A stretch of DNA of 64,000 bases from Pegea sp. RAD2-039 (Eukaryota > Chordata > Thaliacea > Salpida > Salpidae): assembly GCA_034620365.1 (NCBI GenBank), contig JAQGEQ010000091.1, forward strand, positions 620,001 through 684,000, written 5' to 3'. Shown piece after piece: positions 13,698 to 58,859 of this stretch. Each line of letters starts with the position of its first letter. Position 1 is the stretch's first letter. Under the pieces are notes generated by a model that worked only from the letters and a program-made list of their open reading frames with translations, was not told where the DNA came from and did no database searches. Both the position numbers and the translations under genes were made by a program.

Positions 13698-13965
13698 AAG
13701 CTTTCATCCAGAATCCATTTCTCAAAACTACTTTAATTGAATATATATTTCTTAATTTACTGAATTAAATCAGCAGAACATAAAACTTTCATCAAATCTA
13801 TAATTTGAAATTTATAAAAATTCGATAAATTGTTATAATCATAAGTGATGCATCTTTTAAAATAAAAACACAAATTAGAAATATGTCCTTAGATGTAGCC
13901 GAACTTAGTGAATAATTACTAGCATAAATTTTGATGTTTCTTTTCATGATAACTTTTGATGAAAT
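13698..13965. other. 3' flank of the oxidase gene
   Basis: AT-rich 3' flank, probably with the oxidase 3' UTR. It ends at the left border of duplication copy A. No gene seen. Confidence 0.4.
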
Positions 13966-15812
13966 TCTCAATTTCATATAAAGAAGTTTATAAAATTCCA
14001 AAAGACATAGAGGAAAATACGGATTAATTAATTAGCTCAATAAAAATAATACATTTGCTAATAATCACATAAGATTAATGACTATACAAATTATCTTAAG
14101 GAAGTTCTTGCAATAAATTATTTTATATAGAAGATATACGCATGAAAATGTCTGCGAAAGTTTCTTAAAAAGAACAGAGAACTTTCCATCGGTTTACATC
14201 TGTAAAAAATGATTTTTTCTCTGTGTGAAATACTTGTTTATTTTCTTGAAATCATTTTAGATGAATTTACAAAAAGCTTATTGCAAAATTTCAACAATCA
14301 AATTAGCTTGCTTCTAAGCATAAATTTACTCCATTGTTTTAATGACTTCTTTACATAAACCAGCTATTGACAGAAATTGTCTATTAATATCAAAGGAAAA
14401 AAATTCAATTACTAACCGTTTTATACTTAATTAAGTTAGAACAATTACTTAATAAAACGGTTATTTCTTAATTGATACCTAAAGCGGAAGTCCCATAGGC
14501 TTAAATACTCCTTCTGCTGAAAGAATATCAGATCAAATGTTTTTGAATGCTGTGCATTTAGAAGATGTTATAAAAATAATCTTATGTATTTTGAAGTTCT
14601 TATGAGAAATATTTCTTTAAATTTAGCCATTAGCGTTACTTACAAAGCTTATAAAAACTATAGATATAACTTGTTATCTTTAAGTACTACCTTAAAAGAA
14701 ACAAAAGATTCTGATTATATTTATAATCTTTTTTATTATACTAGTAAAGTCGATAATGATGCAAGAAAATTCGAGAAACTTTTTAGATAATTGCTAAATT
14801 AAAAGTATTTCTGATAAGAAAAAGACTTGATTATTAAATAATCATCTAGTAGTTTTATTTTTGAAATATATATTCCAAAAACTCGACTTTTATTATGTTC
14901 TGAAACTTCTATCATTTTAGAAAAATAAGAAAATGAACTCTAAATTGATTATTGCTTTGGTTGCTATCTGCTTTGTTGCCTTGTCCCAAGGTTGTAGTCA
15001 AAGCTCGTAAGTATTATTGCTTCTTATTACAATTTAGTAAAATCACGAAAAAATAATCAAAGTAAATTAAATTTGCAGAAAAAATACGGTTAGTGCTATT
15101 AACAATGACGAATCTGTAAGTATTTTAGAAATGTTTTTGAAAAGTCTTAAACAATTAAGTTAAAATCTTAATTTCAGTTCGATCGTACTACCTATGATCA
15201 AATTCTTGCAAAACTCTTCAGCCAACTAGTCAAACGAGTCGGAGTTGCTAGCGCTAAGAAGCTTGTAGCTGATCTTACTAAAAAATATCCAGTTCAAGGA
15301 TAAGGTTCGTAGCAAATTTCAAATTTCTTTAAAGTTACTTTTGAACTTCAGTTTTAACTATGAGTTGTAAACAGTAAAAATACTTTAATTTTTATAATAT
15401 TTTGAAAATTAAAATAAAACCATGACTTTTAAACTAAAAATTTATTTAACAGCTTTGAAGTACAAAGGTACGTACTAAATTTGGGATACTAATAATTTGG
15501 GATACATACTGATATATAGTGATATTTACTGGAATTGTGTTCTTTAGTATTAGTTTTTTCAAACTCATCAATAAAACAAATTGGCAAAAAGCTTAAAGAA
15601 TATCTTTATTTTGTTACTGGTTTAGCATAGGCAAAGATGAAGTTAATGGTATAAGCTTAGTAAGGAACTAAATATAATCTCAATATGCTTAAAATGGTGT
15701 GACTGTTAGTCAAATTAGATTAATCAAATCATATAAAAATGTTTTTGTGTAAATTCAAAGATGTAAGTATGATAGAGACCAACACAACATATATAATAAA
15801 TATTGTTGAAGT
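13966..15812 (+). repeat. Segmental duplication, copy A
   Basis: This 1.85-kb block is nearly identical to 35700-37470. It starts at a sharp border (ctcaatttcatataaagaag) and fades out at about 15812. It holds a complete secreted-peptide gene with both introns, so the copying was at DNA level and not by retroposition. Differences between the copies are scattered substitutions and a few indels. Copy A has about 70 bp extra near 14350-14420 and an 18-bp tandem repeat near 15480-15500. The peptide exons differ at only one base. Confidence 0.93.
14933..15303 (+). CDS. Small secreted cationic helical peptide, copy A
   Basis: Three exons (14933-15006, 15079-15115, 15178-15303) encode 78 aa. Exon 1 gives a clear signal peptide (MNSKLIIALVAICFVALSQG) and CSQS. 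Exon 2 gives a short polar spacer ending NNDES. Exon 3 gives about 41 residues from FDRTTYDQ to KKYPVQG, with about +5 net charge, no Cys, and spacing that suggests an amphipathic helix. The last residue is Gly, which could be converted to a C-terminal amide. The layout (signal, short spacer, linear cationic helix, terminal Gly) resembles that of cecropin-type antimicrobial peptides or a peptide hormone, but I see no sequence homology to a named family. A strong 3' splice site ends 12 bases before the ATG. Exon structure, start and stop are the same in copy B, which supports the model. Function is not known. Confidence 0.82.
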
Positions 15813-18800
15813 GTTAATCAATATTTATGATTATATACAGATATCTATATATTATTAAATAAATATCAATCAATTTCTATTTAAAAAGTTTTATTGTGAA
15901 CTTTTATACAAAAAAGTTTAATTGAAAATTTATAAATGTCACTTTTTCTCTCTAACAAACATTTTGAAAAGATAACAAATAATCTAGTGTCAGTCCTTTT
16001 AGTTGATCAATTAGGTACTTTCATCATCAGTTAGCTTTATCGTAAAGCAAATCAGTTGTCACTTTTACAAGATTTCTTATGAAACTAAAACTTTAAATTC
16101 AGTTTCTATGTAGATAAACCTAGATCACTGTTTTCGAATTTCTTCAAAACAATCTGACAAAATTTTTTCATTTTTACAAAAACTTTTACTGAAATAAGTA
16201 GTACATTAATTTAGAGAATCACTTTAAAATTTGGAACATTTTTATGGTTTTAGAAATATTCATTAAAATTATTGAATACATTTATACTAACTACATACAA
16301 AAACTTTATAAATTAAATATTGTTTTAAAAACTTATAAAATATAAGCTTGAAAAAATTAAGAATCAACTTTAAACATAATAATTTGTTTGAAAGTCTTGT
16401 AAAAGCTCACTGATTTCAGCTTGACACTATTATATAGAAGACTATTTATTACATTTAATAATCTATTATTTGACATACAATCATAAATATTTATTTTGTA
16501 AAAAAGGAAAACATATCGAATGTAATTTTTTTTTATTCAATAATAGTTATAATGATATAATATTAATAATGGTGATACTAATATTTCCCATCTTTTATAT
16601 TTCTTCCTTTTTAATAATGGCAACTTCTGAGAAAAAATTAACCCGATGAATAATATGATAATAATAATGGAATAAGAATTATTGGAAGAAGAAATCATTT
16701 CGTTTTCATTTCTGAAACCACTGCCTAGAGTTCTAAAATGGGTAAACATTTTGACTAATCAGACGCAAAGACTAGTCCATTATTTTTTCTGTGTCATATA
16801 AGAATTTGAAGTTTGAGCAGAAGTATCAATCTGATCTCATCCAATAATCTTATTTTGTTAGTCTATACCTTGGAGTTTAAGTATCCTTCGTCGTGATTTT
16901 ACTAACGCCGGTCATTAACATTTTTAGCCGCTAAAAAAGTAAGCATTGTTTTGAATATTGATAAGAGTCATTGACCTAAGTATAAATTTCCAAAAGTTTT
17001 ATAAGATTAAGTTTTAGATATTGATTTACTCTTAAATGGAAAAATTATTTGCCTTACAAAAAACATTTTGAATTATTAGAAGAGGTAATATATGAGTTTA
17101 AAAAAGCTATTAATTTCAAAATTTTTGTTTAATTATTTATAAAAATTGTAATTTTAGAAATTAGGCAAAGTATTACAATTCATAAAACAGTTTAAAGTTA
17201 TTTAGAATTTTTATTTTAATCTACACAAATTTTGTAGAAACAAAACATTAAAATATCTTAAAATTTTCTTTTAAAGTTATTTCAATGTTACAAACAAAAA
17301 TGTTTGAGGCAGTGAAAATATTTTCTTTAAAATGTTTAAAGCTATGTAAAAGATACCAAAAAAATAGTTAAAGATCATTTGAGATCTGAGATTCTCCCTT
17401 TCATCAGTAAATAAGATTCATGATACAACTCATAAATTGATTATTAAACTTAACACCTTTTTAATATACATCAGTCTAAATATTAGTATATCTATATAAT
17501 ATTTCAGAAATACAAACTCTATTCTCACAGTCCTTTCTGTCCTTGTAGTATAGCACAGTGTTAGAATACAATTTACAGGTGACTTTTTAGGTTAAATACT
17601 GATTAAGTTTCTTGTTTATCACAAAAATATATCATAAAAACAAAAAGTAGGATGAGTATTAAGCTCACTTATAATTATGAAACAAATACACATCAGTTTA
17701 AATAAAGATATTATTAAATAGAATGCAATGATAAATCAAAAGGTTGTAAGGCATTTATTATAGAAAAAGTAGTAAATGTTGTTTTTTAACCCAAAAGTTG
17801 TAATTTCTAACTATTGTTTTTATTAAACTAGCAATTCTGAAAACTTGTTTAATAGTAAGCTGTTGATGAATAAGCATTATATAAAAAATAAACGTTTTTA
17901 GAATTATAAGCTTTTTTTTCATATATAAGTAAAAACTTTAGTATAAGTGAACTTTGGTGTAAGTGAAGTAAATACTTTCTTAAGTATGAAATTAAATACA
18001 GTAAAAGTAAACATCTGTTTCAAATTTTTATTAAGGTAATCATAATTTCCAGTTTAGGTTTGAAAGGTATATCTTGTTAATAAATTATAATTGTTAGTGT
18101 GGTTATTCATGATTATAATTAACGTTTAAATCTTATATAAATTCTAATTTTTAATTCTAAAAAGATTTAAAATAAGTAAAAACTTCAAATAAGTGGATAA
18201 TATTCTTCTGTATTAATTTACTGGGAACTACTTGAAAATCCAAAAAGTAAAATTCTAGACGAAAAATTAGTTGAGAAATAGTTTACAGAAGCAACAATAG
18301 TAGCAAAAACCAAAACTTTAAAAGAAATCTATTGTTCTTGTAAAGTCCTCATAATAAAAACATATTTTTTTTCAATTATCCAAACAAGTTATTATGATTT
18401 AGTTGAAAAACACGATACATTTTTCTTTCAAGTTTATATTATACATGCAAAGCGTGAAGATGCTTATTTTCTTTTTTTAGTTTATACTAACACGTTTTTA
18501 TTTAAACTTTTAATTTATACAGAACAGTAGAATATTATTTAAAAACATTACAAGTTGTAGTCAGGAATTTATGTGAGGTTTTTTTTCGATTGATTTGACT
18601 AGTTTTTAAAGTGAACAAAACTTTATTGCTTGTTTAAAGGTCTGAATTTTTTACCAAATTAATATTTCAACTGACTTTGACCTTTATAAAATGGTAAACT
18701 GAAAAGTTTTATACGGTACTTGTCTTTAGTTGATTGTGTTTTACATTAAATTAAAAGTTTTTCTTTAAAAAAAGATTGCTCATGTACTAAAGGTTTGAAG

Positions 18801-21334
18801 ATTTAATTCGAAATTATTTGAATAGTTTGAATATTTGATATTAAAGTTTATTTTTCACAAAAAAAAAACTGTTTTATTCATCTTGTGTATTGTTAAAACT
18901 AAAAAAACTCTATTGAAAAAAATGTATTTTTTCGTGAAGAATAATATTTTATATCACTATATGTTCTGAACAAAGTTTTTTGTTCTTTTTAATATTTTAA
19001 TCGTTCAATTAAACCATTAAGTACTTTGTAAATGCAAATTTAGAATACATAGAGCACTACCAGTTTTTCATTTGCCTTATATAAGTGAGAGGTTACAGAA
19101 TGTTTTATTTTTGGAATACTTACATAATTTGTTTTGTTTTTTGAAATCTAAAAGTATAATTAATAATTTTGATAATCGATATAAACTGTACATAAATCGT
19201 TCAGTTTTAATAATCATAAGTATACACAGCAACAATTTTTCAAGCGATATAATCTAAAGTAGTTTACTATTTAGTTCAAAAATGTACTATTCTATTTTAG
19301 ACGGTAAAACTTTTTAATAACGAATCTTTAATCAAATAAATTGTTCAATTAAACTATATTGAAGATATTTGAGTTATCTAGCTAAAGTGATTTGCTAAAA
19401 ATGCTGAACTACTTAAAATTTTTGTTTTTGATATTTATTAGATTGTTTACAAAACAGTGGGTTGAAAGGCAGCGTAGTGATTGTAAAAAAGCTGCTAGAT
19501 ATAAATCAGCAAAAAATATTTTAAGAGATAAGATAAAAGAGTAAAATGCATACTCTATATACACTTTAAAAAGTTTTAAAAATACAGTTAATTCTATTAG
19601 GCATTTTATTTATTGTCAAATCATTAATTTTTATCTTTTTGTCAACTAATAGTTATTTGTTTCTATTGCAAAAAAAGCTTGACATTTTTTGAACTATTGA
19701 AATTAATGAAAATATAAATTTTTAAGTGGCAAGGAAATTAACCAAGTTAAAAAAGCTTTTCTAACTTTAAATAGATATTGAGACAAAATATGCCTAACTT
19801 AAGTTGTAACTATAAAGTAAATTCATTGTTTCCTACTAAGTTTGTAATTTGTTTTGACTTTTAAACAACTTTTAAATAAAAAAAATAAGCTTGATGTACT
19901 TTAAAAGTATTTCAAAAAGGTATTACCGGCACGCCCACAAGACAACCAATGAAAAGAAAGTAGACAAGTCAAATGTTGTTCTCACAATTTCATTTGGTTT
20001 CACATATATTAGGGCTCAAGCAAAACTATTATGTAAATAGCAATCTTTAGCAGTTTAAAGCAGGAAGTATAGCCGAAATTTCAATTAGTCATAGAAAAAA
20101 AATAGTCAAATTAGTTTATAGAATTTGTTCTCATTTTGTATTACATGTTTTCAGTTCCGGCATTTTCAATTAGTAATTCTATAAAATATAAAAGTTTAAA
20201 GTTTTCAATTATAAACTTCTAAGTCATAAGTCATTAGAACAAGTTTTCAAACAAAAATTGTGGAAATTGTTGTTGGTCTATATAAGTTACTAATTACTTG
20301 ATTAAATTCATTTAAAAAATTATTTTTATTAAAGAAAGCTTTAAATTGTAATTACTAGATGTTATATGATGAATGGTACATACGTCAGTCTGACACATAA
20401 TTTACTCGTCATAACTTATGTGCTAAGATTAGAGTAACTTACTTATCGATTTTTTTACATTTTATTTTCGGAAAGTTACTTTACAAACTTTTTTCTAAAG
20501 TAAATTTTAGATTACTTTTGATAAAGCTTATGAAAGTTACTTTTAAATTTTGTTTATAAATTTTGAAATATAAAATAATTATTTGAGTTCATTGTTTATT
20601 AAGTGCCACAGACTAAAATAAGAATACAACTTAGATAAGTATTGTTGTAGCTTGTTTAACATACAAAAAAGATTGAGCTATTATAGAATATATGTTCACT
20701 CAGATAACTATTAAATGCAACTTTTATAACTGTAAATTACGTTGAATGGCGTATAAATTATTTACCGTTTTTATTTTAAATTAATAATGTATTAAACAGT
20801 CGTTTTTAAAAAAGTTTATAAATGACTCATATTGTTTCAAAAATTAAAAACTTTTTCTATTAATATGATTTACGTCAAAAATAATTTAATTAACATTAAG
20901 ATATTTTTATCTGACGCTTAACATTACCAAGGCTTACTTATAAGCTAAGGAGAAACTAGTAGTTGATTATGGCTTAGTAACATTAGATATTAAGCATAGT
21001 GTATATTTGATGTAATTGTGCAAAAGCCTTTAGTGACACTTGAAATTTGTTTGAAATGTCTGTTTTTTTTAAGAAAACGTCACAGACTATTCTATCATTT
21101 TTATTCTAAATCAGCTTTTGTCTGTGTTTGATTTATTTACTGAGTAAGGTACTAAAATAAACAATGAAAAAATAGTTATTATATCAAATAGAAGTCAATC
21201 TAAATTGTTAGTAATTGTTTTAATTCTAATAAACAAGCAAAGTCACTATATTATGTTCATATTCTTTGATTAAACGGTTTCATTTTTTTGGAAGATTAAA
21301 TAAAACTATTATTCAAGATAATTAAACTATTGAA
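15813..21334. other. Long intergenic stretch
   Basis: About 5.5 kb, very AT-rich, between copy A and tyrosine aminotransferase. I found no exon with homology I recognise. A minus-strand open frame at 16537-16749 ends in a hydrophobic run (YSIIIIILFIGLIF), but it is short and has no convincing neighbours. The right end contains the presumed promoter of the aminotransferase gene. Confidence 0.45.
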
Positions 21335-24300
21335 ATGGTTATTGAATCTCCATCCTCAAAACCTGCCACTGAAGAACATTTTATTCAGTAAGTGAATTTG
21401 TCAATCTATTTAAGTAAGTTTTTATACATTCAACTTCAAGAAAAATATCTTTGAAAAGTTTGTTCTAACAGTAAAGTTTTTACAATCGATTTTTATCAAC
21501 AACATTACGTACTGTTGAAACAAACTTTTATTAAAAGCTCTCTGCTATAAATTATAGAGATTTTATTAATTGTTCACTCTTTTAGAACATTGTCTTCAAC
21601 TGAACGAGGAGAGAAAATGTGGAATGTAAAATCTTCAACAACTGCTACAAATACTGTGAACCCAATTAGAAGACTTGTTGATTCAATTACTGCAAAACCA
21701 AATCCTGATAAAAAAGTTATTACTTTATCCTTGGGTAAGTTATAAGACCGTTATTGCATAAAAGATATAAACTACAACAGCTAAAAATTGCTTTTTAAGA
21801 TAAAGTTTTATTTTAGTAACATCATAAACATTTTTCAAAAGGTATTTTTTGCAGGTGATCCAACTGTGTTTGGGAACTTTGAACCTCCTGAAGAAGCTAT
21901 CGCTGCTATTGAAAATGTGGTAAGAAGTGGGAAGTACAATGGTTACGGACCATCATTTGGGTTCAAAGAAGCAAGAGAAGCAGTGGCACAGTTTGTTTCT
22001 GCTCAAAACTCCCCAGTTACTTCCAACGTAAATTAAAATAATAGTTCAAGATAGTAGTTATCACTTTGTTTCCAGGATATTTATCTATCTTGCGGCTGCA
22101 GTGATGCCTTAAATATGGCTATTACAGTGTTTGCGGATTCTGGAGATAATATTCTTATTCCAAGACCAGGTTTTTCTATCTACAAAACTTATTGTCAATC
22201 TATGGGAATTGAGTCTCGTCTATATAACTGCTTGGTATATAATCAATTTTTAAAAACAAAGTTCAATCTTTTTTATATATGTTCAACACATTTTTTGGGG
22301 TTTTAAGTTTTTATTTAATAATTTATGGATATTATTATTGTCAGTTATTTAGCAAATATTTTAATAAGTCGCTTTTATCTTAGTTTCTGTCAACATATAA
22401 ATGTTACAAACAATATTAATATGATAATAATGAAAACCAATATTTAATCAGTTTTAAACAGTAACCTTCTACAGCTACTGACATTTAGTTCCAAAAACCC
22501 TCTGAATAATTTATAAACCTTGTGCAGCTTTACCTGCAGTGAAATTGACATCAAAAAAATATATTTTTATCTGTTGGGTTGTAAATTTAGTTCTATTGTA
22601 AAATTACAAAGCCAAGTAAGAATGTAATTTTAAAGTTTGAATAATTATATTATTTTAGATAGATACAAAACTAGTTTTGTTTCAATTCAAAAAGTTTTAA
22701 AACAACTTTAATAAAACTTGCAACTAAAAACACAAATTTTTTGAATCAAGATATAAACTAAAGTTAAAAAGAATCTATGAGTTAAGTTTTTTGGATGTTA
22801 ATGTAACTATACTAATCTAGAATTCTCTAAAAATGAAATTTACTTTAACTATTGATAACCAAATAACTCCCATCTTCTATTTTATTAACATTTATGTAAT
22901 GAAAATGTTATTGTAATCAAAAGTATATTTGTTTAATAGCCACAGAAATCATGGGAAATAGATCTTGATAGTTTGCCATCTTTAATTGACGACAAAACCA
23001 AAGCAATCATCATTGTAAATCCTTCTAATCCTTGTGGGTCCAACTTCTCACGTCAACATATTCTTGACATCATTGGAGGTAGATGAGTTATTAAAAATGA
23101 CTTTTGACGTAATTTTCTTGTCTTTTAGTCGCTGAAAAGTACAAAATCCCAATAATAGCAGATGAAATTTATGCTGACATGGTAAGCAGTATGTATTGAT
23201 GTGCTATCAGTATTACACTTATGGCTGAGTCATTGTGTATTTACACTGTAAGCTTTTTATGTGTAAAAATTTATATTTGTTTCAAAATAACTTCTAAGCC
23301 CATAAAAATGATGATAAAAAAGAAAACTTAAAAAATGTGTAAAAATATTCATAAAAAAAATAATTTAATTGAATAAAGTAAAATTATGTATTAAAGGTTT
23401 TCAAAGGACAGACTTTCCACTCTTGCGCAAGCTTATCTGTAAATGTACCTGTAATCCAATGTGGAGGCATGGCAAAAAGGTTTTTGTTTCTCTTGTTATG
23501 CTTCATTTAACAGATTAGACAACTAGCTACACAACTGTTAGTACAGAATATGTAGTAACTCAGTTGAAAAATTATATAAGTTTATTTAATTTAATAGTTA
23601 TCATGCTTCACAAAACTTAATTTACTTGGCAAGATAAAGTAATTACTCTAAAAATAAAACTTTTTTCGACTTTCTTTTTATTGTAGTTATTATTTAAACT
23701 AACTTAAGTTTAGAGCAACTGTTTTATGAATAATAAATGATTTATCAGAGGATATTTTTAAAGATTTCTTCTGCCTGGATGGAGATTAGGTTGGGTTGTT
23801 GTCCATGACCGACACAACATTTTGGGAAATAATGTAAGTTTTGCTTTCTTTGTTTACTGCGTCTTAAATAAAATAACTTTTATAGCATTAAATAATTTTG
23901 AATTTACATTGTAATTTTCTATCTACTTATTTCTAGTGATACTTAAACTAATCTTTTAGATTCGAATGGGTCTTTTGAATCTTTCCCAGCGAATACTTGG
24001 TCCTTGTACTTTAGTGCAGGCTGCTTTGCCAGCTATATTAAAAACTCCTAAAAGTTTTCATGAAAAAACTATGGAAAAGTTAGAAGAAAATGCCATTTTG
24101 ATATATAAGAAACTTGAGAAAGTCCCTGGTCTAAAGCCAGTTCGACCAGCTGGTGCCATGTATATGATGGTTTGTATTTTTAAAGTTTTAAGTTATTTGT
24201 TTTCTTAATTTTGGAAATACTTTATACTTAGGTTGGATTTGAAGGTGAAAAGTTTCCTCAAATTGAAAATGATGTGGACTTTTGCAGCAAGCTGATTATC

Positions 24301-24650
24301 GAACAGAGTGTTGTGTGTTTACCTGCGAAGGTATGTAGTAATTTGTATCTTAGAAATTCATCAAAACTTAAATAGATGGAAAAATCCAATTTTACTTTAA
24401 AACACAAATAATTTAAAACTATAAAAAATGATGTTAGTTTACAAACAATCAGTTTGAGTTTTGTTTTAATAAAACAGAATTTAGTTTAAAAATTTAAGAA
24501 TGAAATTAAAGCTTAAAAGTTAACAAGTTTTTATCTTTAAAGTGCTTCGAGATGCCCAATTACTTTCGGTTGGTAATCACAGTTCCTGACTACCTCTTAG
24601 ATGAAGCAGGCTCTAGAATTTCTGAGTTTTGTACTAAATATTATCAATAA
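21335..24650 (+). CDS. TAT: Tyrosine aminotransferase
   Basis: Eleven exons (21335-21387, 21586-21734, 21855-22027, 22076-22234, 22940-23078, 23129-23181, 23397-23479, 23764-23833, 23960-24169, 24232-24330, 24543-24650) join in phase to 431 aa. The match to animal TAT is colinear: [79 protein letters not shown], and [17 protein letters not shown], which holds the PLP-binding Lys. [21 protein letters not shown] and [15 protein letters not shown] follow. The enzyme transfers the amino group of tyrosine to 2-oxoglutarate, the first step of tyrosine breakdown. It is a type I fold PLP enzyme and is complete here. The N-terminal region before NPIRR is shorter than in vertebrates. Introns vary from 48 bp to about 700 bp. 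No sign of damage. Confidence 0.96.
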
Positions 24651-27119
24651 GCACCAAATCAACTTTATTAAAGTTATATATCAAACATTATGATTTGGTA
24701 AAATGTGACATTAAAGAAAATTGTCATTCCATCTTTTAATATAAAGTTATGGTAAACAATTTTCATTTTATAAATTATTCTTATAATCTTTGATTTTAAA
24801 ATGTTAGATTTACAAACAATACATGAATTTGATTTTATGACGCTTTTGGTGCTAAATTTTACTACAATAAGTCAATTTTCATCGAAAATTGAAATTTATC
24901 TATAGTTTAGACTCCACACATATTTTCATATTTGATGTAGCAAAATTCAGTTGTAAAACTGAATGATGAATTAATATATAGAACACTTTGATCTTGAATT
25001 AAAATCATAAAGATTAAGAGATACTTTTATATCCATAGATATATATATTCTTTCACTATTAAATCTTTTTGCAAATGATTTTGTGTTTATTCATCATCTG
25101 TAGTCAAGTAATCTTAAAACAGCTGTTTTATACAGCATTCATAAAGTAAATATCAATATTTATTCTTTTCAGAGTAACGGTAACTCTTTTATTAAAACTA
25201 TTGAAAAATATCAACATTTTTTAAACGTTAATCATTATAGTTAACCAATTAGTCCAGAATTAATTCATTTGTCGTGCTTTTTAATGTTTTATGAATCTTT
25301 GAAATTAAGTATAATAAAAAACTATTGAGTTGACTTATATGTTTCCTAACTTTATTTAAGTGAGGCCACAATATACTTACTTTATGTGGAAAGTCAAACC
25401 ATTCTTTGTTGACTAATAGGTAATATAAAGATTACTACTTACTATCATATATTTTTCCATGAGTTTATATGATTATAAATTATTGTAAAAGATTTTCCTT
25501 AGCTTAACTTTAGCATCTAAAATTATGTTAAATTAAGTATGAGATTTATTATCGTTTATTAATTTCCATAAATGTCCACCGGCAATAAAAAGTGGTTAAG
25601 AAAAAATAAAAAGCTACATTGCTCCTTCGACTACTTTTTGTGAAACTTATTCTTTAAAATTTTTTCCAAAAATTTATTAGAAATAATTTCGCAGGCTGTA
25701 AAAAATTGTTAGTATGCTTGAAAAGCCTATCAGAAACTTATAAATCCATTTGATGGTTTCTACAATATTTCAAAACTGTTTTAATTTTTTGATATGTTAA
25801 ACGATAAAAGAAATGATAGAGTTTACAAATATTTTACTACAAATGGTTAAAAACTAAAGAATGCTATAAATAAGAATCGTAATTTTATGACAAATGAATA
25901 AAATCAAGAAAAAGTTTGTTAATTTTCGATCTAATATTGAATTCAAAATTAAAATTCATTATTTCTAAAAAATTTAAAAAAGGTTTATATATTAAAAGGT
26001 AAACATTTAAAATTCATTATTAACAATTACAAAAAGTAATTTATTTTCTAAATTGTTAATAAATCTTTACAAAAAATTCATAAGCAAGATCTTTTAATAT
26101 AAAGCTTTTAACAGATTTAATTTAAATATAATAGATAAAATATTAACATTAATAAGAATTGTTGGATGTTAACATTCATGAAATCATTTTTATAACAGAA
26201 AGTGTGGCTTTTTTATTTAGGTCGGTCAAAGTTTTAGTTGTAAGAACAAAAAATCATTACAATTTAGAAAATCACCTTGATATTAAGTTGTAAAAACCTA
26301 ACAATAATGTAAGTAGTACCAAGGTGTATGCTTATATAAAAGAGCTTTATTTTGAATAGATTATCAAATAAGTTAACTGTATAATACTGATGTTTAATTT
26401 TATCTTATCTTTATCTTCGTAAATCTCTTTCGGTCGAAGCGGTATAAAAAATGTTAGTAGAAAAGGTTTTATACGAACAAGCCAACTTTTTCGTAGGGCG
26501 AAATTGTTCAAAGTAGTACTTTTGTTAGCGTGATCTGATTTTATAATAACAAAATAAATCAGTTAACCTTTATTTACTACTTACTTGTCAATTTAATTGT
26601 TGTTAAATATATTCCATCTGTATTTTTGAACAACTGTTAATTATTTTTCATTACAGCTTTAAAAAATATATTTTTTCATTTATTTTTATGACTTTAGTTT
26701 CATATCTTGTTTTCTATTTTTCTTGTTAAAGGATAATTTGTTTAGTTTAGAGATAACTTTAAAACTATAATATTATAAGTATTTGCATAATTTTTACTAT
26801 GATTTCAAAAAATAATAATCTATCTGATAAAATTCAAAAAAAAACTTATTAAAAGTAGAATATTTTAATTGCCTAATCTAAAAAAGCGAGAAGTTATCAG
26901 AAAAATTTGTATCAGATATATTTTGTATTTTACTGTCTGTTGTTAATATTAAGTTATTGTTAACTAAATTTTTAAATTTTTTGTCATTTGGTCATAAATT
27001 GCTCTAAAAAACTCATAAGATATTTATTACATTCATTTTCTATATAAATTCAATTCATTTAATTCAATATTTGTATAACTAGAATTAAATTTATTAATTA
27101 ATTTTCATTTTGTCAGAAA
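24651..27119. other. Intergenic between TAT and MRPL27
   Basis: About 2.5 kb of AT-rich DNA. A slightly GC-richer patch at 26415-26560 has short inverted repeats but matches no RNA family I know. No exon seen. Confidence 0.45.
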
Positions 27120-28765
27120 ATGTCATTTCAAAATAGTTTTAGGAATTTTTGTTCTGCTGTCCAATCATCAGGTAAAATTTATTTAGAGCTTACTTATTTA
27201 TATTTTAAAAAAATTTCAGATTTAATTATATTTAAGTTAGGTATTTACATTTCATAGAATTTGAACATATAACAAAAAGATTTTTTATGATAGTTTATTA
27301 TAAAACTTTTAATTTTATTCAATAATTAAATTTAAGATCATAATCTGTTTCTTGTTATTTTAACATTCTAATTTTCTAAATGTATTTTTTTGTATTTCAG
27401 TAAATTTTGTACCAAAACTAAAAGCAGATTCACCATTTATCATTATATCTGCAAATGCATCATCTGGTCAGAAAGGAACTACTCGAAACTACACTAGAGT
27501 AAATAGAAAACGTCACAGAGGTGTACGTGTTTCTGAAGGTCTTTATATTTTAAAGTTATATGCAATATTTATAACGAACACAAAACAATTTGATCAGAAA
27601 GATAATACAAAGTCCTTAATTTAGCATAAATAATGTAGAAAAAATAAGAAAACTGCTGAAGTATAAGTAGATAATTATGAATCAAAAATACAAAATAAAG
27701 TTTTATGATATCTAACTATTTAGTTTTCTTACGTTTATGTAGTTTATAAAATAAACCTATAAAATGATCTCTTATTATTTTATTTAATGTATTTATACAA
27801 TTTAGTTTATCGTACAAAAAACTTGTGTATATTATTTAATAGTTATAAATATTTTTGTATAATTATACATGTTACAAACTTTATTTTGTAAATTCTCTCT
27901 TAATTAAATTAGAAGTACTCATCTGATTATAAAATAAATTAGCTATTAAAATGGTACTACAACTAGATAATAATAATATATATATACTTTTTTTAACTGT
28001 TCTACAATAATATTATAAAAAAACTTTTATTAGACCTTTCTTTGTCATTATGATTTATGTAATTCAAAAATCCAATTATTTAAGGCGACCGTGTTCACAG
28101 TGGATATCATCTTGTAAAACAAATTTCTCGAATTCAATTTTATCCGGGGGCAAATGTAAGATTTTTCATAAGTTGTTGATCATTACTAAATCTTGTTAGC
28201 ATGATCATGTATTCAATCACTAATGTGCTTTCCAAACCGACATAAAAACGAGATTTCATCTTTATACCTTTTCTTTTCTATCGATTCTTCCTGTTATTCA
28301 CAAGTTCTGCCTCTGAACAAAGTTTTCATCTCTCAATTACTACTTTCAATTTATTCTTTAATTTATAAAGTAAGCTAAATGAATAATAATCAACTTGATG
28401 TATTCTTATCTTCAATATTTGGTTTATTTACATCACAAACCTTTTATCAAGTCTTTAAAAGTATCCTTAAAAACTAAAAAAAGTTCTAAACCTTTCATGA
28501 AATATTTTCTAATCAATTTGATATTTTAAGTAGTTTCAAACTGATTATATTTATTGTACAGGTACAATCAGGAAAGAAAAATTATCTGACAGCTTTGTGT
28601 AGTGGAACTATTCGATTTACAAAAGAGATTTTTATTCCTTCACCTAAGTCACCAGAAGCAGAGATAGCAGCAACAATGCCACAAGGTGCATTTATGTACA
28701 AAACATTTGTTAATGTGGTACCTGATGGACAAGTTGGAAATTTTAAACTAGTTGAAACTGTTTGA
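27120..28765 (+). CDS. MRPL27: Mitochondrial large-subunit ribosomal protein bL27m
   Basis: Four exons (27120-27171, 27401-27538, 28085-28155, 28562-28765) give 154 aa, close to the 148 of human MRPL27. Exon 1 and the start of exon 2 supply a presequence rich in Ser, Phe and Arg, as expected for mitochondrial import. The bL27 core follows: NASSGQKGTTRNYTRV, GVRVSEGDRVHSGYHLV, RIQFYPGANVQSGKKNYL. Then comes the mitochondria-specific C-terminal part, GTIRFTKEIFIPSPKSPEAE, MPQGAFMYKTFVNVVPDGQ and GNFKLVETV, which follows the human sequence closely. The protein helps build the large subunit and sits near the peptidyl-transferase centre of the mitoribosome. The ATG lies three bases after a good 3' splice site (ttttgtcag). 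A short protein with only short blocks of strong identity, but the order of motifs is decisive. Confidence 0.93.
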
Positions 28766-29648
28766 GCTTGTAATTATCAAATGCAGTTTTATTTGCAAGT
28801 TTCAACATTAGAATCTACAAAATCGTGCATTTTGTGAAAATCTTTCTAAATCTTCTTTGATAGTTAATAAAATTATCTTGTGGTGATGATTAATTTGTTC
28901 TAGAGATAGTTTTTCTTTAGTGTCTACTCTAATAGTTGATTTACTGGCCCAGCTCATTTACTTTTGTGCAAATATATCAAGTAATTTCAATAATGACTTT
29001 ATTTGTAATAAAAAACATCTAAGCAGGAAAAAATTAGAATATAAAAAAGGTTGTTGGATTTTTTTAGTTTATTGTTCTTTACTGAGCTTTAAATATATAA
29101 CGATTTGTCATTATACTTTAAAGTAAATCTTTAAACATAATTGTCATTAAGAATTCCATTTGTGCAGCAATTCTTGCAATTAAAATATAATTTAAGGCCT
29201 TATAATGTAAAACTATTTATCAGAAAAATTATTAATCATGTATCTGATATGTAAATTATATGTTTACAAAAAAAGGATTTAATTATAATGTTAAGTATAA
29301 CTGATTTTAACGATTACTCACATTTTATGATATTTATACATTATATACAAAATAAAATATTTGCTTTTTCTATCATTAAAATGAAAAATTTAAACGCTCT
29401 TCAAACAAATTAATATCAACTATTTTTTAAATTTCTAGATCATTAGTAACCATAATCAAACTTTAAATTATGTATATTTATTATAAAATGTCAAATTAAT
29501 TTATATTTTCATCATTTTAAAATCTATAAAATCGCTTTAATAATAAGCTTTCGTGACCTAACGGATTTTTTTCAAGAAAAATCCAGAAGTTTCAGGTAAT
29601 ACTATTTGAAACTTATTCAAATTCTAAAAAATACTAATCTTATTTTTA
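28766..29648. other. Intergenic, 3' of MRPL27
   Basis: AT-rich flank; the first part is probably the MRPL27 3' UTR. A candidate exon ending in tttcag|gtaata near 29597 lies just before the Kunitz exon, but its reading frame closes within about 12 codons, so no signal-peptide exon could be placed. Confidence 0.4.
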
Positions 29649-29649
29649 G

Positions 29650-29828
29650 CCCGTTGTAAGGTTCTAAGAAAAATTGGAGGTATTAATCGATACTTTCATA
29701 AAGAAAATTATGGAGCATGTTGATTATCTTCTTTTAGTGGGTGTAAAGGTAATGAAAACAAGTTTTCTTCTTATGAAAAATGTAAAGATACTTGCGGTCT
29801 TCAACATGATCCTTCTCGGCCGAAGTAG
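29650..29828 (+). pseudogene. Kunitz/BPTI-domain exon with in-frame stop
   Basis: After a splice acceptor (tatttttag) the frame reads ARCKVLRK, INRYFHKENYGAC, stop, LSSFSGCKGNENKFSSYEKC, KDTC, and then a real stop. The spacing C-x7-C-x12-C-x3-C and the GNENKF block are those of a Kunitz serine-protease-inhibitor domain. Two things are wrong. The codon right after the Cys30 equivalent is TGA (29721-29723), where a sense codon is expected. The Cys14 equivalent, which pairs with Cys38, is missing, with about four residues lost between Cys5 and Cys30. No signal-peptide exon was found upstream. I take it as a decayed member of a secreted Kunitz family. An error in the assembly could explain the stop but not the missing cysteine. 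Confidence 0.75.
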
Positions 29829-31468
29829 ATTATATAATAATTTGTAAATGAGAAATACTCCATTAAATTTTGACACAAATTATTTTTCCTACAATATTAT
29901 TTTCTTCTCAAATAAACCTTCAACTCTGTATAATGTTTGAATCTAATTTCTACTTTCTATAAAACTGTCAATACAAAACTTCTATATGTACAAGCATTTG
30001 TTTTCTTTTTAAATTTTGGTTTAATTTAATATCTTTTTGTAGCTAAAGCTATGTAACTGTGAATAACAAGCTAGACGTATTGACTTATCTACTAATATTC
30101 TACACTGATTTCTGCCTTCAAGTAAAAATTTATCAGAAATGACTTAAAACATATATTTTAAACTTCATTAAACCGTATAACAGACAAAAAAGAAGTCAGT
30201 TTTTCTCTGTAACTAGAAAAGGCGAATATTAAACTAATATAAAGTTTATTTAATATAAAAAGAAGAAAATTAAGAAGTACTCTGAGAATTCAACTAAGTG
30301 GTGAAATTGATAGGGATGTTTTTCAAGATCTATATGCTATGGCTGAGTTTTCATCAAATTTTGAAAAGAGCAACAAAAGCAAATAAAAATTGGTTAAAAA
30401 TCAGATATTTAAATCAAACTGAACTGTTAAAGAGACTTATTGAAGTATTTAAGATCATTTTGCTGAGTTGTAGAAGATCTTGTAGAAGCTTTTATTTTTG
30501 ATTGGCATAAAAAATATTAATAATAAATTATGTAGGTATTTAAATTTAGACTTATATAGTTATCTATATATAAATGTATATATAAAATAATATGTAGACA
30601 ATATTAGCAAATACAAATGTAGAATTTATATTGTTGATATTATCAATTTTTTGGAAAAATAAGTTTAACATTTTTAACTGGATGCATTATCAGAAAATCC
30701 AATAGCAAAAATATTCATCAATTTTGTGCAATAAATGTAAACAAAATTAGTACTTATTTTAATAATATGCACTGTCATATAACCTACTTATTTAATTGTT
30801 CTTAGAAGTTAAAAGTAATTACTATTATTGTAACTTTTTATTGATAATTTAGGAACTGTAGTGTATTGAGCTTTTGTAGTTTTAAAATATCGGTGAAAAG
30901 TTGCTTATAACGAAATAGACTAATTTTGTCAGCTCTGTTTCATTTTGTTTTTAATCCATTTTATCAGCAGCTAGGGACGCTTTACAAGTTTCATTCATTA
31001 GTTTTCAAAAGGAAATTTTTTGTTTTGTGTTTTTTTGGTAAAACTCATGAACATATTTTAATGGTAAGGTTGTTATTAAAGAAATGAAATTGTTAAAAAT
31101 GTCAAAGACAAAAAGTATCTTAGTTGTAAGAGATAGTTTTAATCCTCTTAGGTAACTAAATTTGTAAAAAAATTGTGCTTGTTTACTATTTTATTAAAAT
31201 TAAGGAGTTATTTTGAAAGCTGTTATATTTCCTCACAAAAAATAATTTCAGATATAAATAATTTAAATAAACTTTGTTTTTTAGAAATCTACATTTCAAT
31301 AAACAAATTTTTTAATCTATCTAAAGTTAAAAAAAAGTTGTTCTTGGTTTTATTATATAAGATTATCTCAAACTAACTGATGGCTAAAGATGACTTTTAC
31401 AATATAGGTTAATCATCATTCTATTAGAAACTGTTTTATTAATTGAATTAAAACTTCTTTTTCAAAAG
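29829..31468. other. Intergenic, 5' of NIM1
   Basis: AT-rich. It should hold the NIM1 promoter and a short first coding exon, which I could not place. The first exon found begins in phase 1 after a splice acceptor, so the start codon must lie in this stretch. The open frame at 30298-30501 has no recognisable features. Confidence 0.4.
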
Positions 31469-33638
31469 TAGAATCATCAGATGAAGGTTCAGCTTATGGA
31501 AATCAACTTGAAAAACTAGATGAAGATGACAGATTAAAACAAGAAGTTAAATCTGATAAAAGAATAGGATTTTATTCTTTTTTAAAAGAACTTGGATCAG
31601 GAAATTTTTCTAAAGTGGTTTTAGCTGTTCATGATTTAACAAAAGGTTTGTTATTATTTTTGTTAAACTTTTTCTAAAATGAATTTTTTTTTTAAATAGC
31701 TCATGTAGCTGTGAAAATTCTGAAAAAAAGTTTGATCACCCCCAAGATCAGAGAGATGCTCTCTCAAGAAGTATCTAATATGGAAAGACTCCATCATCCA
31801 CATATAATCCAACTATATGAGGTAAATATCAAAAAACCATCAAAGAAATATTAAAGCTAATTTAAGAGTAGTTTTTAAATCATTTACTTTCATCGACTAT
31901 TAACTGAGTAATTTTTTATTAAAATGATTATTTAATGATTTTTTTACTTTTTTTTCTTCTTTTAGGTTATTCACTCACCATCAAAACTTTACCTTGCAAT
32001 GGAATTAGCTTCTGGAGGTGATTTACTAACAGAAGTAACTCTGAAAGGTAAACTACCAGAAAGTTTGTCAAAAGTTTTGTTCTCTCAACTTATTTCAGCT
32101 GTACAACATATGGTTCGTAGAAATTTCTTGTTTGTTATAGAACTTGTTTATCATTGAAACCTGTTTTTTCAGCATAATCACAAAGTTATTCATCGAGATT
32201 TAAAGTTAGAAAATATTTTTCTTTCTAAACAAAATTACATCAAGGTAATCTTATAAAATTCTCATAATATTTTATTGGATAACAAAATGAATAAATTATA
32301 TTTTAAATTGAAAAAAGTTTTAATTATGAAACCACTTTTTTGTTTGTTATTAAAAATCCTTGAATAATGTTCTCTATTTCTTATGTTTCAAAAGATTGGA
32401 GATTTTGGGTTCAGTCGTTCATTTTCAAAACTTGGTTCCAACTTTGATACTTGTTGTGGTTCTACTCTATATGCTGCTCCTGAAATTATTTCTCAACAAA
32501 ATTATGACGGAAAACTGGTTGATGTTTGGGCTTTGGGTGTAATTCTTTACTTCATGGTTACAGGTTTACAGTCTTTTGTCTTCTATTTAGTTTAGGGTGT
32601 GTTGCTTAGAGAACATTGTAAAAAATAGAGATATACTTTCAATATTATATTCAGAAAAAGGTTTTTGTTTAAACTTTATTATTATTTAAAATAATAAACT
32701 TAAGTTTTTGATTATATGCAAACAATAGAAGTAAATATTGAACTCTAAAGTTAAATGTTTTGAATAAAGTCACACATATTTGTTTTAGTTATCGAGAAGT
32801 TATTAAAAAGATCTACAAATAATAGAAATCAAAACTAATGAAAGGATTACTTTAAATGTTTTCATCTCTTGACTTTTATTTCTTAGGTGTGATGCCTTTC
32901 AAATCTGAAACATTTGGAAAATTAAAACAGTTAATTCTTAATGGAGTATATCATCTTCCTCCTCATCTTTCTGTTCCCTGCAAACATCTTATTAACGCGA
33001 TTTTGATTACTGAATGTGACAAAAGAGCTTCTTTAAAAGATATTAGGCTTAGTGAGTGGTTAAGTGGGGTATCTATTCCCTCAAACTATCTTTTTTATCG
33101 GTTTGTATCTTTGATTTCTTCAAGACCTTTTCTCTTAAAAGTTTTACTTTTTCAGAAAAGATCCTATTTTAGTGAGTCTTGAAAGCTCTGAAACAGAAGA
33201 AGCACTGGCTGTTTTGTCGATGGAAAAGGTTGGTATCACCAAAAAGAAGATAGAAGAAGCATCTTTGATAAGATCTCCTAATCAAGTAAACTTGATCTTC
33301 TTCTTATTGATCTTTTTAAATGATTTATTTACAAACAGCCAAACATCAAGCTTTATTGTGGAGTTGATGAGAGATCTGCTATGATTGGTATATACAGAAA
33401 CTTTCTTCATCAACATCAAGCTCTTTTACAAGCTTCAAATTCCCGGGAACAAAATGCGATAAAAAAGATGATTGATTTAAAAGTTCATGAAACTTTCCAA
33501 CTCCGTCGTAAACCTAACCACATCTGCCAACATTGTAATCCTTCAGATCCTGATCCTTATCTTTCAGACAGTTTTTTCAACGGATATATCAAATACAATG
33601 AAAAAAGACAAAAGTCAAGACTTTGTTCAATCTTATAA
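31469..33638 (+). CDS. NIM1K: NIM1 serine/threonine kinase (AMPK-related), first exon missing
   Basis: Eight exons (31469-31645, 31700-31821, 31966-32112, 32173-32244, 32395-32563, 32887-33100, 33156-33285, 33339-33638) encode about 442 aa; human NIM1 has 436, so only the first few residues are missing. The kinase domain has RIGFYSFLKELGSGNFSKV (glycine loop), VAVKIL with the catalytic Lys, MERLHHPHIIQLYE, HRDLKLEN, GDFGFS, and the activation loop NFDTCCGSTLYAAPE, which keeps the Thr phosphorylated by LKB1 in relatives. VDVWALGVILYFMVTG and VMPFKSETFGKLK follow. The tail IGIYRNFLHQ and the final KSRLCSIL match the ...KFCSIL end of NIM1, which separates it from other AMPK-related kinases. The Pro-Pro of GSPPYAAPE is Thr-Leu here. 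Its cellular role is poorly known in any animal. All key catalytic residues are present. Confidence 0.93.
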
Positions 33639-35380
33639 ACCTATTTTATATTTTCCTTTTTTGCGCTATGCAGACTTTTTTTGATTTACTACTTTTTTGA
33701 TCCAACTTAAAATAATTTTTTTTCCACTTCCAATTAAGAAACAATTAAATGTAATTAGGGACTTTCAATCAACATTTTCTGGAGTCTTTTTTAATAAACG
33801 ATTGAAAGATGTTGCTACATTTGATACTAGATGTTGAAGGTGGAACGTCTAAGATAATTAAAAGAGAAGTAAAATATTTTACAATTGGACATATGGATAA
33901 AAGATAATTTATAAATATAACATTTAATTCCGTTGATACCAGCCATACACCTTTTCTAATTTTAAAGAAGAACTTTTACTAAAATAACCGATGTACTAAT
34001 TTTACTAATTTTGAAGTAAAAAAGGATAATCATTTGGACAAAATAAAAGGAATAGAACAAAAATAGAAATTTTTTAAATAGAGCATTTTTCTAATATCAA
34101 AATAATTAATCATAAATCACTTTCTAGAAAATATTTTTCCATATTTACGGAAATCTTCTAGAAATATATTCGATTTAAAAAGCAGACTTTTTTTTTAAAT
34201 ATGACAATTAATATACGACAGAATATTAAATTAAGTTTGATAGATTAGACTTACAATTTAGCTTCTTGACCCAAAGCATCTATATTCTTTAACATAATGT
34301 TAGTTATCTACAATAAATAGTTATTTTAATGACTTTTTTTATTTCAATGAGTTTTTTTTCTAATAACCATTTAATGATCTAAAATATAAGATGCAACTAA
34401 TTAACGATGTAATGGTTTTGATATAAAAAAATTTATAAGATAAAGTTATACTTAAGTAAATGTTTATGATTGGAAAAGCTAAGTAAAAATTTTAATTAAA
34501 ATATTTCAAATTGGATTTTTTTCAAAATCTTAACGAATAAACTAATATTGAAAAAATTATTTTTGAAAACAATTTTGAAGATAAATTTTCTAAATTTGTA
34601 TAAACAATATCTCTGTCAATTTACCGATTTTAAAAAAGTCATATTTATAAAAATAATAAATAGTTAAAGCCTTATTTAAGACCTTTCTGTATATAAAACC
34701 AAAATTTATTTTATACAAAATGTGTAAAAGCCAGAAAAGGGATTTGAGTTCCATGAACACAAAAAGTTTTTTTTTCTTTCTTACCATAGTTTTTCCACTT
34801 GCTGCGCTCACGAGCTGTAAATTTACATATATTTTTATTTAAATCTAAAGTTGCTTAGGTTTTTGAAAAATGTAATTGAAAGATCAAAAAACTATTTACT
34901 TTCTCCTCAGTTTTTATCGTATATTTTGCAACAAAATAACTATGTTTTGCTGCCACCTTTGTTTTTAAAATTGATTTTGTTTTCATTTTCAATTCTGATA
35001 AAAAAAATGATCAATAGAATTACTAAATGTTATAACTAAAAGAAAGATTTATCAGTAAAACTAGTCTCAGACATTTTAATTGTATGACTCACTTAGTTTT
35101 AAAGCTATTCAAAATTTACAGAATACCTTACAAAATTTGATTTTGTAGACTAAAGTTAAAGTTCTGCTTTAAAATGATAAAACGAGTAAAGTTTTTAAAG
35201 TATTGTTTGTTTTCTTAAAACTGCTTAAATCGTTAAAATTATTCAAAAGTATTAAATGATTAGTAAGAGATAAAAGAGATATTTTTGCTGTTGAACAACA
35301 AACTAAAATTAGTTTTCTTTCCATGGAATTTTATGTAATACTTAAAACTATTTTCTCAGTAAAAATTTCTTAAAAAACTA
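33639..35380. other. Intergenic
   Basis: 1.7 kb of very AT-rich DNA between NIM1 and the left direct repeat of the copy B locus. No gene or RNA seen. Confidence 0.45.
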
Positions 35381-35690
35381 AAATTCAAATATTTTTTTTT
35401 GCTATTAATGGTCAAAATCTAAAAGTATTTAAAACTGATGCTGTTGAAAATTTATTATTGTTCAAATAATTTCAATTTACTTATATACCCTTAAATACCT
35501 TCAGTACATGTGAGTTTTGTGCAACAAAACAAATTAAAAACATTATTAACAATTCTTTTTGCTTGAAAGTTATGCAGAAATTGTTGTTCAACCATATCTT
35601 AGTAAAACTAAAAAAAACTGTTTTTTTATCCTTTCGAACAAATATAAAACTTTTTTTGTTACTTTTGAATACATTATTAATCCACAAAAT
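35381..35690 (+). repeat. Direct repeat, left (R1)
   Basis: About 310 bp, repeated in the same orientation at 37592-37907 with roughly 5 % difference. It ends at ttaatccacaaaat, ten bases before duplication copy B begins. Both copies stay open in one frame on each strand, but most differences change residues on both strands, so I do not call it coding. Copy A has no such repeat next to it. Confidence 0.85.
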
Positions 35691-35699
35691 TGTTATGTT

Positions 35700-37470
35700 T
35701 CTCAATTTCATATAAAGAAGTTTATAAAATTCCAAAAGACATAGAGGAAGAAATACTGATCTATTTAATTAGCTCAATAAAAATAATACATTTGCTAATA
35801 ATCACATAAGATTAAACACTATAAAAGTTATCTTAAGGAAGTTAGTTCTTGCAATAAATGACTTTATATAGAAGATATACGCATATAAATGTCTGCGAAA
35901 GTTTCTTACAAAGATCAGAGAACTTTCCATCGGTTTACATCTGTAAAAAATGAATTTTTCTGTGTGTGAAAAACTTTATGCTTGTTTATTTTCTGGAGAA
36001 CATTTTTGATGTATTTACAAAAAGCTTACTTAGTGCAAAATTTCAACAATCAAATTAGCTTGCTTCTAAGCATAAATTTACTTCATTGTTTTAATGACAT
36101 CTTTTATACTTAATTGAATTAAAACAATTACTTAATAAAACGGTTATTTTTTAATTGATACCTAAAGCGGAAGTCCCATAGGCTTAAATACTCCTTCTGC
36201 TGAAAGAATATCAGATCAAATGTTTTTGAATGCTGTGCATTTAGAAGATGTTATAAAAATAATCTTATGTATTTTGAAGTTCTTAGGAGAAATATTTCTT
36301 TAAATTTAGCCATTAGCGTTACTTACAAAGCTTATAAAAACTATAGATATAACTTGTTATCTTTAAGTACTACCTAAAAAGAAACATAAAAGATTTTGAT
36401 TATATTTATAATCTTTTTTATTATACTAATAAAGTCGATAATGATGCAAGAAAAATCCAGAAACTTTTTAGATAATTGCTAAATTAAAAGTATTTCTGAT
36501 AAGAAAAAGACTTGATTATTAAATAATCATCTAGTAATTTTATTTTTGAAATATATGTTCCAAGAACTCGACTTTTATTATATTCTGAAACTTCTATCAT
36601 TTTAGAAAAATAAGAAAATGAACTCTAAATTGATTATTGCTTTGGTTGCTATCTGCTTTGTTGCCTTGTCCCAAGGTTGTGGTCAAAGCTCGTAAGTATT
36701 ATTGCTTCCTATTACAATTTAGTAAAATCACGAAAAAATAATCAAAGTAAATTAAATTTGCAGAAAAAATACGGTTAGTGCTATTAACAATGACGAATCT
36801 GTAAGTATTTTAGAAATGTTTTTGAAAAGTCTTAAACAATTAAGTTAAAATCTTAATTTCAGTTCGATCGTACTACCTATGATCAAATTCTTGCAAAACT
36901 CTTCAGCCAACTAGTCAAACGAGTCGGAGTTGCTAGCGCTAAGAAGCTTGTAGCTGATCTTACTAAAAAATATCCAGTTCAAGGATAAGGTTCGCAGCAA
37001 ATTTCAAATTTCTTTAAAGTTACTTTTGAACTTCAGTTTTAACTATGAGTTGTAAACAGTAAAAATACTTTAATTTTTATAATATTTTGAAAATTAAAAT
37101 AAAATCATGACTTTTAAACTAAAAATTTATTTAACAGCTTTGAAGTACAAAGGTACGTACTAAATTTGGGATATATACTGATATATAGTGATGTTTACTG
37201 GAACTGTGTTCTTTAGTATTAGTTTTTTCAAACTCATCAATAAAACAAATTGGCAAAAAGCTTGAAGAATATCTTTATTTTGTTACTGGTTTAGCATAAG
37301 CAAAGATGAAGTTAATGGTACAAGCTTAGTAAGGAACTAAATATAATCTCAATATGCTTAAAATGGTGTGACTGTTAGTCAAATTAGATTAATCAAATCA
37401 TATAAAAATGTTTTTGTGTAAATTCAAAGATATAAGCATGATAGAGACCAACACAATATATACAATAAAT
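35700..37470 (+). repeat. Segmental duplication, copy B
   Basis: Near-identical to 13966-15812, same orientation, 21.7 kb downstream. It includes the full secreted-peptide gene and its upstream region, such as the block from gatacctaaagcggaagtcc to the start codon. It lacks about 70 bp present in copy A near 14350-14420. A single T-to-A change in the block matching 14584-14790 puts a stop in the longest non-peptide frame, which shows that frame is not conserved. Confidence 0.93.
36618..36988 (+). CDS. Small secreted cationic helical peptide, copy B
   Basis: Same length (371 bp), exon layout and 78-residue product as the gene at 14933-15303. The only coding difference is Ser22 to Gly22 (AGT to GGT), just after the signal peptide. 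The mature exon (FDRTTYDQ to KKYPVQG) is identical. Over the rest of the duplication the copies differ by substitutions and indels, so the coding exons look better kept than their surroundings, though the number of differences is small. A splice acceptor ends 12 bases before the ATG, as in copy A. Function unknown; see copy A. Confidence 0.82.
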
Positions 37471-37591
37471 ATGGTTAAATATTAGTTAATAAATATGATG
37501 ATGTACAGATACCTAATAATAAATTGTTTATTCTTTATATAATATTATTTAGATATTTATCCATGTATATTTAAAAATTTATTATGAAAGT

Positions 37592-52850: not shown

Positions 52851-58859
<6,009 letters not shown>

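Follow-up and report, generated by a model that had tools for sequence, protein, structure and literature searches.

The 64,000-nucleotide window analysed here (C10:620001-684000, that is, part of contig C10 of the Pegea sp. RAD2-039 assembly, 105.7 Mb in 387 contigs) carries two nearly identical three-exon genes for a short secreted precursor. In our preferred reading, to which we give a probability of about 0.6, they belong to an antimicrobial-type precursor family as a neutral branch that is diversifying, with exon 3 as the pro-domain, the function being suggested by layout and homology. The first-pass annotation of the window had described the pair as a recently duplicated secreted peptide gene with one exon per functional part, namely a signal peptide, a polar spacer and, in exon 3, a mature cationic peptide fit for amidation. 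The gene family and the duplication are real, but the roles assigned to the last two parts are probably reversed, with the constant tail as the carrier and the variable middle as the product. The proposed scheme is thus one of a large tunicate family whose precursors would consist of a signal peptide, a variable middle and a conserved two-helix C-terminal domain encoded by exon 3, with the layout, the exon phases and the exon-3 homology taken to link the window genes to paralogues that resemble precursors of antimicrobial peptides (AMPs).

Both genes lie on the + strand and were delimited by sequence reading and splice-site modelling, copy A at 14933-15303 and copy B at 36618-36988, each encoding the 78-residue precursor that had been predicted, with GT-AG introns and 74 + 37 + 126 = 237 coding bases. 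In copy A, exon 1 (14933-15006) encodes the signal peptide (residues 1-20; signal peptides were assigned by eye) and the start of a variable segment at Cys21; it is followed by intron 1 (15007-15078, 72 bases), by exon 2 (15079-15115) with the remainder of the variable segment (residues 21-37 across exons 1 and 2, CSQSSKNTVSAINNDES), by intron 2 (15116-15177, 62 bases) and by exon 3 (15178-15303, including the stop), which encodes the conserved two-helix C-terminal domain and probable pro-domain. The corresponding exons of copy B lie at 36618-36691 (signal peptide and first part of the variable segment), 36764-36800 (variable segment) and 36863-36988 (exon 3 including the stop, identical to that of copy A at 126 of 126 bases). 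A secreted multi-exon precursor is supported, as are the single coding difference between the copies, Ser22Gly, and the description of their exon 3 as free of Cys, with a counted charge of +5 and a Gly at its end; the assignment of one exon to each part holds only approximately, since the variable segment starts within exon 1. The contrast that had been drawn between a conserved coding region and diverged flanks needs correcting: the introns differ at only 1/72 and 0/62 positions and are conserved like the exons, so that constraint on the coding sequence cannot be read from how little it has diverged.

Searching the genome with the exon-3 protein returned at least 24 places, of which 14 were close and stop-free (4 on C10 and 10 on C6), one contained a stop and nine were weak. 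All 14 close copies (subfamily 1) gave intact three-exon models, and while the recent duplication itself is upheld, it was not a two-gene event, since the subfamily comprises these 14 intact copies and one degenerate copy on C10 and C6. More distant copies fall into subfamily 2 (at least nine exon-3 copies on C6, C59 and C78), subfamily 3 (at least 12 on C83 and C189) and subfamily 5 (six further places on C6 and C44 that match subfamily 3 with expectation values (E) of 2e-5 to 0.003), with one additional gene at C6:2978609. Exon-3 copies without internal stops thus number at least 42 (14 close and at least 28 distant), all these counts being lower bounds; a match on C37 (E 0.27) was left out. 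Modelling was tried for eight of the nine subfamily-2 copies and gave five usable models of exons 1 and 2, one poor model and two without a donor; three of the 12 subfamily-3 copies were read whole and one partly; and reading by eye covered C6:2978609 and, of the six places in subfamily 5, C6:4266096. Exon phases are the same across subfamilies 1 and 3.

Exon 3 is homologous across these subfamilies. Profile comparison by hhalign, with few effective sequences, joined subfamilies 1 and 2 to subfamily 3 at a probability of 95.9% (E 5.5e-9) and subfamily 1 to subfamily 2 at E 4.7e-9, and BLASTP of one whole precursor each from subfamilies 3 and 1, signal peptides included, gave 1e-13. The common pattern is a helix, a VG and a second helix, with G22, L29 and D32 invariant in 13 sequences. 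In the three subfamily-3 genes read whole, the signal peptide is directly followed by a GW- or DW-led cationic segment rich in Trp, His and Arg (charge +4, helical moment 0.74-0.90), which ends at LG|DEQ and precedes an acidic exon 3; C6:4266096 likewise has a basic middle that closes with LG|D, and its fourth exon, as judged by eye, is acidic. This is the order reported for Ciona antimicrobial precursors, namely signal peptide, cationic helix and anionic helix (PMC7387483), and it places exon 3 in the position of the pro-region. Most likely, then, exon 3 would serve as a pro-domain that helps the middle to fold, to be packed or to be transported, for example in haemocyte granules, rather than as a released peptide. 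As an observation in its own right, the C83/C189 genes and C6:4266096, with their GW/DW-led cationic middles, are candidate new ascidian antimicrobial peptide precursors.

This places the view of exon 3 as a mature linear cationic amphipathic peptide, a defence peptide or hormone amidated at its terminal Gly and derived from a former pro-domain turned effector, among the unlikely explanations, although it keeps some probability for the window branch itself. In its favour are the charge of +5, the amphipathicity and the two predicted helices in the window copies, the terminal Gly in all 14 subfamily-1 copies, and the strongly kept protein of subfamily 2, where one distant pair (C78 and C6:4031165) differs at 16/23.5 silent and 8/81.5 replacement sites in exon 3, an excess that indicates purifying selection. 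However, its subfamily-3 counterpart is acidic and lies behind a cationic segment, so that exon 3 shares its origin with an acidic tail in paralogues whose cationic part is the middle exon, which also speaks against exon 2 as a mere spacer. Exon-3 charge ranges from +5 in the window pair, through +3 in four further members of subfamily 1 that were counted, to -5 to -6 in subfamily 3, and cationicity is therefore not conserved; the terminal Gly, constant in subfamily 1, is absent from subfamily 2; and no dibasic site precedes exon 3 in the window copies. An amidated neuropeptide or hormone precursor would be expected to have dibasic sites on either side of the peptide and a Gly in front of the cut; in the window copies a Gly precedes the stop and a Lys-Arg lies inside exon 3.

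Cecropins, to which the layout had been compared, are small, linear, secreted peptides with two helices, a Gly at the bend and a C-terminal Gly. The window peptide shares these features. The helix prediction that had been proposed as a check was made with AlphaFold2 on this exon alone and returned helices at 3-21 and 23-36 (mean predicted local distance difference test score 85.4, predicted template modelling score 0.44, one sequence). The window peptide differs from cecropins in that no Pfam or PDB match was found, the charge is not conserved in the family, and exon 3 forms the unchanging end of a larger kind of precursor. The Pfam-A scan of precursor and exon 3, run with an E limit of 10, contained nothing at the cut-off and no cecropin match, the PDB sequence search for the window genes gave no match better than E 1.3, and Foldseek comparison of the exon-3 model with the PDB gave 19 matches within E 10, of which not one reached 0.001 (best 4.9). 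The homologue search in Pfam-A and PDB sequences thus reached no described family, in agreement with the claim that the peptide lies outside any named one. Two candidate matches were rejected, the best Pfam match, SEO_C (E 0.0025), as being under its curated cut-off (17.7 vs 26 bits), and a PINS chain in the PDB, matched by subfamily-3 exon 3 (E 5.7e-4; whole precursor E 0.001), as a chance helical match, the i-Evalue of its best single stretch being 2.7.

A second line of evidence comes from the way in which the parts of the precursor diverge, as measured by simple counts, rather than models, on paralogues that exchange sequence. Within C6, silent (pS) and replacement (pN) differences per site are 0.060 and 0 in the signal peptide, and 0.101 and 0.326 in the variable segment, whose ratio of replacement to silent divergence (dN/dS) is 3.95; intron divergence is 0.088, and pN of the variable segment exceeded it in 5000/5000 bootstrap replicates. 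Exon 3 of the same copies has pS 0 and pN 0.025. Within C10, dN/dS of the variable segment is 2.01, and in the most different of the four C10 pairs examined the variable part differs at 8/51 positions, as against 1/134 in the introns (p 1.5e-4), with another pair at 5/51 and 1/134 (p 0.006). Between the C10 and C6 clusters, exon-3 pS is only 0.017, far below that of the signal peptide (0.271) and the introns (0.306), and the most alike cross-contig pair, chosen as such, has 0/123 differences in exon 3 and 40/125 in the introns. A fast-changing middle before a near-constant tail resembles the arrangement in ascidian defence-peptide precursors, which suggests that the active part may be the middle; the exon proposed as the mature peptide is, by contrast, the most homogenised part of a precursor whose middle is, among the C6 copies, hypervariable. 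Separately, in exon 3 of the ten C6 subfamily-1 copies, all five variable sites are A/G and residue-changing, with no silent variant, the numbers being small.

The uniformity of exon 3 is best accounted for by exchange between loci. In subfamily 2, exon 3 forms an island of about 120-136 bases with 91-97% identity between several loci (e.g. C6:3962434 and C6:4031165), while the rest of the 1.6 kb compared either does not align or does so at about 72% upstream only. In subfamily 3, all six pairs show 2-4 differences over the 132 positions of exon 3; in exon 2, C83:102 resembles C189:96 (4/73) and departs from its C83 relative (12/61), and intron 1 shows the opposite (30/151 and 6/154, respectively). 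In C6 exon 3, all four gametes occur at 5/10 pairs of variable sites. Taken together, the exon islands, the exon-2 exchange and the four gametes point to gene conversion of exon size combined with a diversifying middle. A constraint on silent sites at the DNA or RNA level, such as splicing or an overlapping element, could also produce a uniform exon 3, and the uniform block does coincide almost exactly with the exon, plus some 15 bases of intron 2; this we consider very improbable, however, as subfamily-2 silent sites change freely in the distant pair mentioned above, subfamily-2 locus pairs that share exon 3 only differ at 1-8 of about 22 of them, C6 exon 3 contains mosaic haplotypes, and subfamily 3 has exchanged exon 2. 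In the scheme proposed here, interlocus gene conversion would homogenise exon 3 and shift exons between loci while the middle diversifies.

Signal cleavage, processing, cell type and function are predicted by comparison with known peptides. For styelins and clavanins, cleavage before D and DD has been reported (PMC7387483), and for CiEMa, a 14-residue Ciona haemocyte peptide whose secretion rises after lipopolysaccharide, likely cleavage between Gly and Asp with amidation (PMC10888236). A Gly-Asp junction ends the variable segment in 9/10 C6 copies and in 4/5 usable subfamily-2 models, and Cys21 is present in 13/14 subfamily-1 copies. Nine C6 genes would accordingly yield peptides of 13-15 residues, each with an N-terminal Cys: a short, near-neutral peptide starting at Cys21 would follow the signal peptide, be cut before the Asp of Gly-Asp and be amidated, the cut and the amidation being like those published for CiEMa. 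The printed CiEMa peptide itself has no visible likeness to them (by eye, the peptide and not the precursor being compared), and the window copies differ in lacking the Gly; with INN-DES in place of NG-D, their processing is predicted to be different or to proceed without amidation. Another way to read the same Cys21, together with the two-helix pattern kept across subfamilies, is that the secreted chain of about 58 residues stays uncleaved and is itself the functional protein, the helices being its fold and Cys21 a possible dimer link; the retention of Gly-Asp in nearly all C6 copies amid an otherwise variable segment, and the cleavable layout of the AMP-like paralogues, make this improbable.

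The relation to defence-peptide precursors that had been suspected is supported. The ascidian linear cationic AMP precursors (Ci-MAM, Ci-PAP and others in Ciona, along with styelins, clavanins and botryllin) are likewise short and secreted, with a conserved signal, a variable middle and a helical C-terminus; the C83/C189 and C6:4266096 paralogues fit this layout well, whereas the window genes differ in a middle that is not cationic and a tail that is cationic instead of anionic. The open-access literature searched contained no description of this peptide family, nor of exon-wise conversion in tunicate peptide genes, and no exact match to six peptide strings of subfamilies 1 and 2 or to six of subfamilies 3 and 5.

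It has to be noted that several results weigh against the reading of the window genes as a neutral branch with exon 3 as pro-domain. In the window genes the cationic amphipathic part is exon 3 (+5, best moment 0.64) and not the middle (+1, 0.37), and their exon 3, though helical by prediction and homologous to an acidic exon, is not anionic as a pro-region of this type would be. The Gly-Asp junction is found in 0/4 C10 copies, those of the window included. Between C10 and C6 the variable segment has pS 0.467, pN 0.337 and a dN/dS of 0.61, not above 1, and the window pair shows no excess (1/51 in the variable segment, 1/134 in the introns), so that the replacement excess is limited to close copies. 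Exon-3 pN between the clusters (0.040) exceeds pS, which is unexpected under simple purifying selection. Searches of the genome with single sequences link the subfamilies weakly (E about 0.02-0.3 in most rows), and some near-identical copies could be uncollapsed haplotypes. The exon-3 profile, compared with pieces, rather than full precursors, of 15/22 published Ciona candidate genes, reached a best E of 0.96, and two simple patterns for kappaB-like sites found none in the 355-369 bases upstream of any of the 14 genes.

If the pro-domain reading holds, the variable middle, and not the constant tail, would be the place to look for the active part of these precursors, and one tunicate genome would offer a series of a single pro-domain type with charges from -6 to +5, making functional change of defence-peptide precursors testable within one species; the exchange of exons between paralogues would be a compact example of diversity through exon shuffling. 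A broader proposal, which we put forward tentatively and regard as possible rather than likely, is that of a family in a chordate, with over 40 genes, providing a partly amidated repertoire of short secreted peptides by exon-wise evolution, in which gene conversion copies the constant carrier exon across contigs and swaps middle exons while selection diversifies the middle, and in which one branch has made, out of an antimicrobial precursor, a near-neutral peptide for signalling or recognition whose pro-domain is reversed in charge.

The duplicated blocks around the two genes extend well beyond them, from 13965 to 15847 for copy A and from 35699 to 37515 for copy B (no strand assigned), and align in two pieces, 14419-15847 with 36102-37515 (96% over 1431 columns) and 13965-14352 with 35699-36104 (90% over 406 columns). 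Identity with two C10 copies about 150 kb away stops sharply at 14915 and 15318 (98% and 97% over 404 bp). A direct repeat (35360-35690 and 37572-37907, 91% over 338 columns) flanks the copy B block; none was found next to copy A. All 14 subfamily-1 copies have an acceptor-like AG at 6-12 bases 5' of the ATG; in copy A the site (14910-14920, + strand) ends in ttttag 12 bases 5' of the ATG and is a candidate spliced-leader acceptor or acceptor of an intron in the 5' untranslated region (UTR). After the stop codon stands a donor-like sequence, TAAG|GTATG in the ten C6 copies and TAAG|GTTCG in the four C10 copies, and from these motifs we infer that subfamily-1 transcripts may be trans-spliced and contain a 3' UTR intron.

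The 16-base Ciona spliced leader (PMC7986045) followed by GTA has 131 matches at up to one mismatch and none in a reversed control, many of them in a tandem array at C4:1134845-1142220 with a period of about 199 bases, which marks the genome as that of a tunicate; SL1, the spliced leader of nematodes, gave no match at up to two mismatches. An intron-split glycoside hydrolase 6 exon at C14:74494-74718 scores narrowly above the Pfam cut-off (27.5 vs 27 bits), this family being one that we take to mark tunicates among animals. COX1 had no match in the assembly, and the window had no Rfam match at gathering score. Elsewhere in the window, a frame at 62470-63123 (- strand) carries the association domain of interferon regulatory factors (PF10401, E 7e-21) and matches IRF5 and IRF9 weakly in the PDB, and exon-like frames at 9198-13081 (+ strand) are of the type of a molybdopterin dehydrogenase, a xanthine dehydrogenase or an aldehyde oxidase (PF20256, E 3e-20). 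Frames at 21785-22033 (+), 32368-32592 (+) and 57070-57432 (-) match an aminotransferase, a protein kinase and a WD40 protein, presumably resembling tyrosine aminotransferase, NIM1 and LST8.

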